Of a stretch of 25,930 nucleotides of DNA, positions 7,954 to 15,760 are shown piece by piece; the stretch's first letter is position 1; the number at the start of each line of letters is the position of its first letter. This DNA is from a virus: positions 1 to 25,930 of the IMG/VR virus record IMGVR_UViG_3300021424_000211; one strand, given 5' to 3'. Position numbers and translations under genes: made by a program. The notes under the pieces are model-generated. The model did no database searches. It was not told the DNA's origin and was given only the letters and a program-made list of their open reading frames with translations.

Positions 7954-9198
7954 ATGAAAGACAGATTTACCGGAATCAAAAAGTTGTATAGTAACGAAGA
8001 CGTTGCACGCCTCCGCGGAAAAACCAGGGTAGAACATACCCTAGCAAGATTAGGCGCAGAAAGGCTTTGGAAATTGATAAATGAAAAGCCTTATGTTCAC
8101 GCTCTAGGAGCATCAACAGGTGCTATGGCTGTCCAACAAGTAAAAGCAGGACTGGATGCGATCTATCTTTCTGGGTGGCAAGTCGCAGCTGATGCTAACT
8201 TGTCAGGAAACACATACCCAGATCAAAGCTTATATCCCGCAAACAGCGTTCCATCCATCGTAAAAAGAATCAATAGTGCGCTGCTAAGAGCAGAACAAAT
8301 TGATCACGCAGAAAACAAGAACAGCGATAAACACTGGTTAGCTCCGATTGTAGCAGATGCAGAAGCAGGATTCGGAGGACCCTTGAACGCTTTTGAATTA
8401 ATGAAAGCTATGATTGAAGCCGGCGCAGCTGCAGTACATTGGGAAGATCAACTAGCATCTGAAAAGAAGTGCGGTCACCTCGGAGGAAAAGTCCTCGTTC
8501 CAACATCACAATTTATTCGGACTCTTACTGCAGCTCGTTTAGCAGCTGATGTCATGGATGTTCCCACCGTGATCATTGCACGAACAGATGCAGAGTCTGC
8601 AAATTTAATCACAAGCGATGTTGATCCATACGATCATGACTACATCGAAGCAGGCAAACGTACACCCGAAGGGTTCCATTACCTCTGCAGGACAGGAATG
8701 GAAAGATGCGTTGCGAGAGGTCTAGCATATGCTCCTTACGCTGACATGCTCTGGATGGAAACTTCAACACCTGACCTAGAAGAAGCAAGGGTCTTCGCGG
8801 AAGGCATTCATGCAAAATTTCCAGGTAAACCTTTAGCATACAATTGCTCGCCGTCTTTCAATTGGAAGAAGAATCTTGACGATGCAACCATCGCAAAGTT
8901 CCAAAGAGAACTTGGAGCCATGGGCTACAAATTCCAGTTCGTGACATTAGCAGGATTCCATTCACTTAACCATGGAATGTTCGAACTAGCTAGAAAGTAC
9001 AGAGATCATGGAATGTCTGCTTATTCAGAGCTTCAACAAGCGGAATTTGATTCTGAACAGTTTGGATACACTGCTACAAAACATCAACGTGAAGTTGGAA
9101 CAGGTTACTTTGACGAGGTATCAAAAGTAATCTCAGGTGGTAATTCTTCAACTCTAGCGCTTAAAGAATCAACAGAAGCACGCCAGTTTGATAAGTAA
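7954..9198 (+). CDS. aceA: Isocitrate lyase
   Basis: 414 residues, close to the 434 of E. coli AceA and apparently complete. It splits isocitrate into succinate and glyoxylate, the first step of the glyoxylate shunt. The catalytic loop [14 protein letters not shown] holds the active-site Cys173. Other family blocks are [68 protein letters not shown] and [10 protein letters not shown], all intact, so the enzyme should be active. The N terminus is about 15 residues shorter than E. coli. No malate synthase is in the window. A perfect extended -10 lies upstream, suggesting transcription by the host polymerase. In a phage it would be an auxiliary metabolic gene redirecting acetate- or fatty-acid-derived carbon. 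Confidence 0.96.
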
Positions 9199-12144: not shown

Positions 12145-12229
12145 GCAACGGAAGTCGTATCGGTGGCAGACATCAATCTCATAAATTGAAGGAGAAATCC
12201 CCTTGTGGGTTCGAGTCCCACCCGTTGCA
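12145..12229 (+). tRNA. Class II tRNA with CAU anticodon (likely tRNA-Ile2 function)
   Basis: 85 bases. Acceptor GCAACGG (12145-12151) pairs perfectly with CCGTTGC (12222-12228); discriminator A12229. D stem GTC/GAC (12154-12156, 12169-12171) with GG in its loop. Anticodon stem TCAAT/ATTGA (12173-12177, 12185-12189) and loop CTCATAA, with anticodon CAT at 12180-12182 and U33. Variable region 12190-12204 is 15 bases and can form a small stem (AAGG/CCTT). T stem GTGGG/CCCAC with loop TTCGAGT. CCA is not encoded. The three-base D stem, long variable arm and T arm look like tRNA-Leu, including T4 tRNA-Leu, yet the anticodon is CAU, as in Met or Ile2. The adjacent TilS gene suggests C34 becomes lysidine and the tRNA reads AUA. 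Confidence 0.88.
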
Positions 12230-12246
12230 CTAAAAACGAGGATATC

Positions 12247-12840
12247 ATGATCCGCTTTCTCGGAAAGATTCCTAATAAATGTACGGTAGCTTTTTCAGGT
12301 GGAGTCGATTCCGTCGCAGTAGTCGACTTTCTATTGAATGGTAAAAAACAAGTCGACCTGGCTTTCTTCCATCACGGCACGAAGACATCGGATGAAGCTC
12401 AGTTTTTTGCAGAATGTTTTGCTTCCGAACGAAACCTGAATCTTCGCATCGGAAAGATCACTCGAGAAAAGTTGCCCGAAGAATCGCAAGAAGAATACTG
12501 GCGAAACGAACGGCATAAGTTCTTCGCCACCTTCGACAAGCCTATCATCACTGCCCATCACCTAGATGACGCAGTTGAGACCTGGATCTTCACGTCCCTA
12601 CATGGTGAATCACGATTGATTCCATACACAAGTGGAAATGTGGTTCATCCGTTCCTCATCACACCGAAAGCCGAGTTTGTTTCTTGGTGCGAGAGGAAGA
12701 ACCTGAGATGGATCGAGGACGGTTCGAACTGTGATCTGCGGTTCATGCGCAACCTGATCAGGCATCGAATCGTGCCTGAAGCCCTGCGAGTCAATCCAGG
12801 CTTGCACAAGGTCATCAAGAAGAAGTACCTCGATCTTTAA
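12247..12840 (+). CDS. tilS: Minimal tRNA(Ile)-lysidine synthetase
   Basis: 197 residues from ATG 12247 (GAGG six bases upstream; a start inside the tRNA at 12205 is excluded). TilS uses ATP to attach lysine to C34 of tRNA-Ile(CAU), so that it reads AUA and is charged with Ile. The PP-loop is SGGVDSVAVVDFL (residues 17-22 are SGGVDS); further TilS blocks are ITAHHLDDAVETWIFTSLHG, HPFLITPKAEFVSWCERKNL, and RWIEDGSNCDLRFMRNLIRH. All N-terminal-domain motifs are present, but the C-terminal domains are missing (bacterial TilS is about 310-430 residues). The gene begins 17 bases after the tRNA, an arrangement that strongly suggests they act together. Confidence 0.9.
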   Translation: MIRFLGKIPNKCTVAFSGGVDSVAVVDFLLNGKKQVDLAFFHHGTKTSDEAQFFAECFASERNLNLRIGKITREKLPEESQEEYWRNERHKFFATFDKPIITAHHLDDAVETWIFTSLHGESRLIPYTSGNVVHPFLITPKAEFVSWCERKNLRWIEDGSNCDLRFMRNLIRHRIVPEALRVNPGLHKVIKKKYLDL

Positions 12841-14983: not shown

Positions 14984-15760
14984 ATGGATAGTATCATTCA
15001 AGATTATCTTAAAGACTTAAAATCTTTTTCACTACTCAAACATCCTGAAGTCGTAACTCTTTTTAAAGATTATGTCGAAGGTGATTCTGCGTCTGCAAAA
15101 AAAGCAAAGAAAAAGCTAATTGAAAGTAATCTTCGACTAGTCATATCAATTGCCAAGAAGCACAAGGGGCACAACATTCCTCTTGAAGATCTTATTCAAG
15201 AAGGTAATTTAGGCTTACTCAAAGCGATTGATCGCTTTGATTATAAACGCGGTTTTAAGTTCTCTACTTACGCAACTTGGTGGATTAAGCAGGCCATTTC
15301 TCAGCATATACTTAAAAGAAAAAGAATGATTCGCCTGCCGGCACATGCTGCATCAGTACAGAAGAAGATCGTACAAGCTGCAGATGAATATCGCTCAATG
15401 ATGGGCTGTGAACCTTCAAATGATGAATTGTTGGACTTGATCGATGCGTCTGAGACTGTTGTGAAGGCGACCATCGCTTCAGGAAGAAACACTGTATCTC
15501 TTAATCAAACTTTGTCTTCTGATCCTGATTCAGGCACCATAGACGAAAAGATTAAAGATGAAGATGAAAATGTCAATCCTTTTCACGTCACTTCTTCTAA
15601 GGAACTCTTATGTATTGTGCAAAAAGTTCTTCAGACGCTGTCAGAAAAAGAGTCTGCAATTTTGCGATTGAGATTTGGTCTTTTTGACGAGAACATGGAC
15701 ACTACAGACTATGTAATTAACGAATCAGACATAGATAACCTTTTAAATTCTAAAATGTAA
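14984..15760 (+). CDS. Sigma70-family factor lacking region 4.2
   Basis: 258 residues. Region 1.2-2.1 runs through [18 protein letters not shown]; regions 2.2-2.4 are [39 protein letters not shown] and [17 protein letters not shown], so core binding and -10 recognition look intact. Region 3 follows (residues 120-175) and region 4.1 is [20 protein letters not shown]. The protein then ends after 25 more residues ([20 protein letters not shown]) where the helix-turn-helix of region 4.2 should be. The other frames downstream hold no hidden HTH. It would bind host core RNA polymerase but could not read a -35 box by itself. Two genes downstream an HTH protein resembles the missing part. Confidence 0.9.

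Follow-up and report, generated by a model that had tools for sequence, protein, structure and literature searches.

A class II tRNA-Ile2(CAU) gene beside a catalytic-domain-only tilS in a phage genome, a probable cassette for the decoding of AUA

To our knowledge, textbooks reserve the class II body in bacteria for the tRNAs of leucine, serine, and tyrosine (and selenocysteine). The isoleucine determinants of Escherichia coli tRNA include C4-G69, U12-A23, and C29-G41. The tRNA(Ile)-lysidine synthetases (TilS) fall into type I (>400 aa) and type II (>300 aa), and carry CTD1 with or without CTD2, the domains by which the studied enzymes touch the anticodon stem and the acceptor stem (PMC12514573). 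In phages MIJ3 and PA5oct, no tRNA was annotated beside TilS, and the enzyme was suggested to help maintain host viability (PMC6892783). Leucine identity rests on A73 and A14 in E. coli, and the Aquifex LeuRS needs the U8:A14 pair (PMC9976931). The nematode nev-tRNA-Ile, a eukaryotic tRNA with a UAU anticodon and no lysidine, is leucylated in vitro (PMC4300185).

The window analyzed here is the whole stretch of 25,930 nucleotides of a virus record (IMG/VR IMGVR_UViG_3300021424_000211, positions 1 to 25,930). The locus under study has the following features.

12145..12229, plus strand: tRNA gene, class II, anticodon CAU, A73 (ARAGORN; RF00005; covariance model R2, 80.4 bits)
12152..12158, plus strand: A8 (12152) and U14 (12158), the reverse of the U8:A14 of tRNA-Leu (sequence; invariant family columns)
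12154..12171, plus strand: D arm, stem GTC/GAC (3 bp) and loop GTATCGGTGGCA (12 nt) (sequence)
12178..12184, plus strand: anticodon loop CTCATAA, with CAT at 12180-12182 and C34, the expected lysidine site, at 12180 (sequence; ARAGORN)
12190..12204, plus strand: variable arm AGGAGAAATCCCCTT, 15 nt (sequence)
12238..12242, plus strand: GAGGA, putative tilS ribosome binding site within the 17-nt spacer (inferred from sequence)
12247..12840, plus strand: tilS, tRNA(Ile)-lysidine synthetase, catalytic N-terminal domain only, 197 aa (TIGR02432; PF01171)

Elsewhere in the window, positions 7954-9198 encode a full isocitrate lyase (PF00463, E 2e-100), an unusual metabolic cargo whose gene is conserved in the relatives G001, G005, and G006.

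ARAGORN called one tRNA in the whole window (12145-12230, plus strand, anticodon CAT), and Rfam RF00005 matched 12145-12229 with 49.5 bits (cut-off 29). The gene is intact, and the original prediction of an 85-base class II tRNA with a perfect acceptor stem (GCAACGG/CCGTTGC, 7 of 7 paired), a 3-bp D stem, a 15-base variable arm, and the anticodon CAT in the loop CTCATAA was borne out by both programs and by the sequence itself. The anticodon stem is TCAAT/ATTGA (5 bp), the T arm is GTGGG-TTCGAGT-CCCAC, and CCA is not encoded. CAU, A37, A38, and A73 are those of tRNA-Ile2, and the paired G1-C72 sets the molecule apart from fMet; the 15-nt variable arm departs from a class I body. RNA folding alone did not recover the cloverleaf of this tRNA. 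Annotation tools name such class II CAU genes tRNA-Met.

The tilS gene starts with ATG at 12247, and its product matched the NCBIfam model TIGR02432 (TilS_N) with 105.2 bits (cut-off 93.6; positions 2-189 of 189), PF01171 (PP-loop domain) being its sole domain, in agreement with the earlier description of a 197-residue TilS with only the PP-loop domain 17 bases downstream of the tRNA. It shows SGGVDS (PP-loop), HHLDDAVET, RNLIRHRIVPEAL, and RNLIRH, so that the SGGxDS, HHxxDxxE, and RNxIR motifs are all intact, and S17, G18, G19, D21, S22, H104, D108, E111, R168, N169, and R172 are invariant across 19 phage TilS. PDB 1wy5 (Aquifex TilS) matched with E 1e-24; an AlphaFold2 model gave a confident TilS catalytic-domain fold (pLDDT 93.5), whose best Foldseek match was 2e21 (A. 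aeolicus TilS, E 7e-14). Without CTD1 and CTD2, the protein is a catalytic-domain-only variant, and is predicted to form lysidine on a CAU tRNA. It had been called minimal, which is correct as to its domain content, but this is the normal form in phages, since all relatives checked have 196-240 aa and the MIJ3 enzyme has 203 aa.

Viral contigs were scanned with anticodon-loop plus long-gap patterns and with ARAGORN, and among the matches listed long-armed CAU tRNAs are numerous in phages. One phage group has the design of the window tRNA, with A8, U14, and a GCC-GTATTGGTTGCA-GGC D arm, and A8 and U14 are invariant in it. The same class II pattern occurs at 115 loci in bacterial genomes; the 80 of these listed with titles all belong to Burkholderiaceae (Paraburkholderia, Burkholderia, Ralstonia, Cupriavidus, Trinickia, and relatives). 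At 100 of the 115 loci, the tRNA follows rpoD on the same strand, 99-330 nt past the end of that gene; E. coli ileX stands near rpoD as well. The D arm of the Burkholderiaceae form reads GCC-GTGTTGGTTGCA-GGC as against GTC-GTATCGGTGGCA-GAC in the window, and the variable-arm core GGAGAAATCCC of the window tRNA is identical in some Paraburkholderia class II tRNA-Ile2.

The covariance model R2, built from the class II A8/U14 family without the tRNAs of the window and of locus L007, scored these two at 80.4 and 83.7 bits, as against at most 63.7 bits for tRNA-Leu and 50-57 bits for other TilS-linked class II CAU tRNAs; the window tRNA therefore belongs to the class II family of Burkholderiaceae and phages. 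This covariance-model comparison, which had been proposed together with the original prediction, speaks against one part of the latter, namely that a leucine tRNA was converted by an anticodon change: the nearest family is a pre-existing class II tRNA-Ile2 with A8/U14. In an order-level search with R1, the top matches inspected were mostly tRNA-Leu(CAA) (the Ralstonia genome itself aside), and R1 is therefore non-specific at loose E-values. Our literature searches found no text on class II tRNA-Ile2; the class II form downstream of rpoD in Burkholderiaceae was found here, and its long arm is unmentioned in the papers searched.

The function of this family is most evident in the bacteria. Among 299 Burkholderiaceae genomes surveyed for the GGGC-type CAU tRNA, it was class I in 69 (33 of the standard form and 36 of an A8 form), class II in 54, and both in none. 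The A8 class I form shares its acceptor and T arm with the class II form, and also stands downstream of rpoD, at the same place (L642). Because this form occupies the same rpoD site and the two classes never occur together, class II replaces class I in place, and no other evidence for function is as strong as this replacement. The remaining CAU tRNAs found in five class II genomes were all fMet-like or of a class I GGCGAAT type with C3:G70, a pair reported for the tRNA-Met of B. cenocepacia (PMC12514573), and the class II family coexists there with separate fMet and Met genes. A search of eight Burkholderiaceae genomes with the class I pattern TAGCTCA...GAGC...CTCATAA found nothing, because the tRNA-Met loop there is AUCAUAA. 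The B. cenocepacia tRNA-Ile2 was considered as a class II form and rejected, since its reported D loop has 11 nt and that of class II has 12 nt; the 11-nt loop agrees with the A8 variant of class I (3-bp stem, loop TAACTGGTATA), and the published lysidine measurements (PMC10128029, PMC12514573) therefore miss the class II form.

Cupriavidus plasmids also bear class II tRNA-Ile2 copies. Extra copies away from rpoD were seen on plasmids and contigs of this genus (L624-L636; plasmids H38-H46), up to four per genome, and these are possibly integration sites of mobile elements.

Locus L007 has the gene order of the window, with ~70-79% DNA identity across aligned blocks, and carries a window-type tRNA at the matching place ahead of tilS. 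The two tRNAs are 96% identical, differing at 3 of 85 bases, two of which form a compensatory exchange of the 2-71 pair (C-G to G-C) and one of which lies in the T loop. Because this compensated copy sits at the same place between flanks of 71-80% identity (apart from the tilS start), the tRNA is not a chance occurrence. The dN/dS of tilS is 0.06-0.12 (window against L004, L006, and L007), and from these values and the higher identity of the tRNA than of its flanks it follows that both genes are maintained; tRNA and tilS are both under selection, which for tilS is purifying.

The survey of TilS relatives covered 55 viral loci, 14 of which are close and include the DNA ahead of tilS. Thirteen of these 14 have a CAU tRNA no more than 1.2 kb upstream of the gene, and the tRNA body varies: class II with A8/U14 in the window, L002, L003, and L007; a different, Leu-like class II in L004, L005, and L011; class I with the acceptor and T arm of the window tRNA in L006 and L008; class I of a GGAACC type in L014, L015, and L056; and class I interrupted by a group I intron in L012 and L013. 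The TilS of the window, L004, and L006 are 93-95% identical, yet stand beside three different tRNA alleles, each of which is shared with a more distant TilS (L007, 80%; L011, 72%; L008, 78%). The tRNA alleles have therefore been exchanged beside a stable tilS, and the loop CTCATAA is unchanged across all of them.

Such swapping among close relatives is what one would look for if the tRNA were a decoy or stand-in against anticodon nucleases, with its body varied to dodge cleavage and AUA supply only secondary; phage tRNAs have been proposed to escape these nucleases by mutation (PMC10264068), and other large phage contigs hold long-armed tRNAs of many isotypes. However, the identical loop is exactly where anticodon nucleases cut, and the link to TilS points to decoding; we regard a decoy as quite unlikely.

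The linkage is not universal. L009 is syntenic and retains a tilS (TilS 78% identical) with no tRNA at the site, and in G009 (222 kb, TilS present) the only tRNA found is tRNA-Leu(UAA); a phage TilS can therefore be retained without a linked tRNA-Ile2. In G009 (L019) and G010 (L017), this sole tRNA-Leu(UAA) lies directly downstream of tilS and AUA makes up ~45% of Ile codons; TilS there presumably serves a host tRNA. In a 204-kb relative, ARAGORN found no other tRNA, and the contig ends inside tilS. Most viral-contig members of the class II A8/U14 family are without TilS. Among 71 further records with long-armed CAU tRNAs, a TilS-type domain scored above the cut-off in only four: in G019 the tRNA begins 37 nt past tilS, in G074 and G075 it begins ~60 nt past it, and in G041, whose TilS is distant, it lies ~2 kb from tilS. 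At least three phage lineages other than that of the window thus have class II CAU tRNAs next to TilS or in its vicinity; because these four tRNAs are outside the window family, the pairing probably arose more than once.

Retention of tilS without a CAU tRNA in L009 and G009 would suit a scheme in which the window tRNA stays unmodified as an extra methionine tRNA and the adjacent tilS acts on the host tRNA-Ile2 only, and unmodified tRNA-Ile2 is indeed a substrate of MetRS (PMC12514573, PMC11938285). We consider this unlikely, as 13 of 14 close relatives keep the tRNA-tilS linkage despite changes of the tRNA body, the linkage is seen again in other lineages, and the Burkholderiaceae relatives replace tRNA-Ile2, not tRNA-Met.

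Several of these loci have other elements near the tRNA. Group I introns interrupt the anticodon loop of the tRNA-Ile2 directly ahead of tilS at L013:2678-2992 and L012:225-530, and occupy two different positions in it (after U36 and after U33); RF00028 scored 87.8 bits for L013 and 39.2 bits, below the cut-off, for L012. Related reverse-strand genes are found between the CAU tRNA and tilS at L004:1983-2927, L011:2105-2998, and L056:2105-2908; they resemble free-standing homing endonucleases and gave no Pfam match. A terminator hairpin (AAAGGAACCTTTAGATTAATC..TCTAAAGGTTCCTTTTTT) is conserved just 3' of the tRNA in L004, L007, L008, L011, and L012, and is absent from the window, where tilS follows the tRNA directly.

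Long arms also occur on other phage tRNAs. Large phage contigs (L404, L348, L389, L323, L303, and L320) hold class II-length variable arms on many isotypes (Asn, Thr, Lys, Glu, Gln, His, Cys, and Ile), with several different long-armed tRNAs in L404, and long arms have seemingly spread across entire tRNA complements of phages. Phage tRNA-Ile(UAU) of 86-92 nt (L232, L282, L404, L416, L288, L371, L127, and L250) have a recurring variable-arm loop close to YAGATNRG, and initiator-like tRNAs (TGCGGG or CGCGGG, 1-72 unpaired) with long variable arms were seen in L127, L133, L168, L109, L131, and others.

The meaning of AUA was read from homologues. The sigma gene of the window starts at 14984, and its codon 54 (15143-15145) is ATA, as had been noted earlier, and the homologue has Ile there; the comparison now extends beyond this one codon. 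In the window, G003, and G005, genomes with class II CAU tRNAs, AUA codons align with I at 0.40, V at 0.17, and L at 0.18, a profile like those of AUU and AUC and unlike those of Leu codons, and with one residue per site Ile is favored over Leu by 102 bits on average. Since AUA codons stand at Ile positions, AUA means Ile in genomes with such tRNAs. The fitted Leu share at AUA is 0.08, as against 0.05 for the AUC control; a first draw had given 0.16, but the values from 20 resamplings, 0.02-0.14, lie inside the AUC control range. This argues against recoding and does not prove the charge of the phage tRNA, because the host tRNA-Ile2 could suffice. The window phage uses AUA at 12.2 per 1000 codons; B. 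cenocepacia uses it at 0.6 per 1000 (PMC12514573).

A leucine tRNA body with CAU could still be charged by LeuRS, so that AUA (or AUG) would be partly read as leucine. This is favored by the long variable arm, by A73, and by a T arm that matches phage tRNA-Leu, as well as by the indifference of bacterial LeuRS to the anticodon and the precedent of the nev-tRNAs (PMC4300185). However, Leu at AUA positions does not exceed the AUC control, and the same tRNA takes the place of tRNA-Ile2 in Burkholderiaceae. A73 is present in the window tRNA, but A8 and U14 stand where a tRNA-Leu has U8:A14 (PMC9976931), and both A14 and this pair are lost in the whole A8/U14 family. Isotype HMMs trained on phage tRNAs with the anticodon masked, which are good for Leu, His, and Tyr and weak for Ile and Met, did not clearly assign the window tRNA to Leu (Ser 20.0, Leu 19.5, Ile 10.5 bits; L007 likewise); a Leu-like body fits other TilS-linked tRNAs (L004/L011 and L169). 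We therefore hold leucylation of the window tRNA to be highly improbable. Of the original prediction, the AUA-reading pair of a class II CAU tRNA with its own modifying enzyme stands, the reading of AUA as Ile now holds statistically, and the leucine-tRNA origin finds no support; the window tRNA very probably reads AUA as isoleucine.

We infer, as the likely function, a class II tRNA-Ile2 whose C34 is converted to lysidine by the adjacent TilS and which serves the AUA codons of the phage. The locus would be a two-part AUA-decoding cassette, composed of a class II tRNA-Ile2(CAU) and a catalytic-domain-only TilS. The tRNA would be transcribed together with tilS or just before it, and the phage (or host) TilS would join lysine to C34. 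With this change, the tRNA would read AUA in place of AUG and be charged with Ile in place of Met, letting the phage translate its AUA codons quickly in a host where they are scarce. The one-domain TilS would read the tRNA without the domains touching the acceptor and anticodon stems; recognition centered on the anticodon loop would fit the common loop and the varied bodies. Several points weigh against such a lysidine cassette: TilS is without CTD1 and CTD2, the tRNA has A4:U69 and not the C4:G69 used by E. coli TilS (C5:G68 is kept), and several E. coli Ile determinants (C4-G69, U12-A23, and C29-G41) are absent. The tilS genes without linked tRNA-Ile2 (L009, G009) and the many viral family members without TilS count on the same side, and the host tRNA alone could sustain AUA as Ile.

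A broader and rather doubtful idea is that the AUA tRNA, in phages as in Burkholderiaceae, repeatedly switches between class I and class II, in either direction, with the anticodon loop fixed (and, within a lineage, the acceptor and T arm); phage alleles might be swapped beside near-identical tilS as a catalytic-only TilS reads little beyond the loop, so that the body could change and thereby evade homing elements, defenses that target tRNAs, or mischarging with Met or Leu. In part of the Burkholderiaceae, a class II tRNA-Ile2 is the only reader of AUA that was found, and phages with a one-domain TilS use this form as well, which raises testable questions: how IleRS and TilS recognize it without the usual body or C-terminal domains, how it escapes LeuRS, here perhaps via A8/U14, and why phages carry a tRNA plus its modifying enzyme.

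The nematode nev-tRNA-Ile(UAU) (PMC4300185) resembles the window tRNA in its long variable arm and Ile (AUA) anticodon, while the window tRNA has CAU, has lost the Leu determinants, and is accompanied by TilS. The TilS of phages MIJ3 and PA5oct (PMC6892783) is similarly short, and is 44% identical to that of the window. The bacterial tRNA-Ile2(CAU)/TilS systems (E. coli ileX, B. subtilis, and B. cenocepacia) share the CUCAUAA loop, A37/A38, A73, the SGGxDS PP-loop of TilS, and the reading of AUA as Ile, but the window tRNA differs from them in its class II body, A8/U14, and A4:U69, and in being phage-borne and adjoining a tilS whose product has neither C-terminal domain. The closest counterpart is the class II tRNA-Ile2 downstream of rpoD in Paraburkholderia, Ralstonia, Cupriavidus, and Trinickia, which is 68% identical to the window tRNA and shares its architecture, A8/U14, 12-nt D loop and, in some cases, the variable-arm core; the window tRNA is distinguished from it by its acceptor (GCAACGG versus GGGCCGG) and anticodon stem, by being phage-borne, and by being paired with its own tilS.
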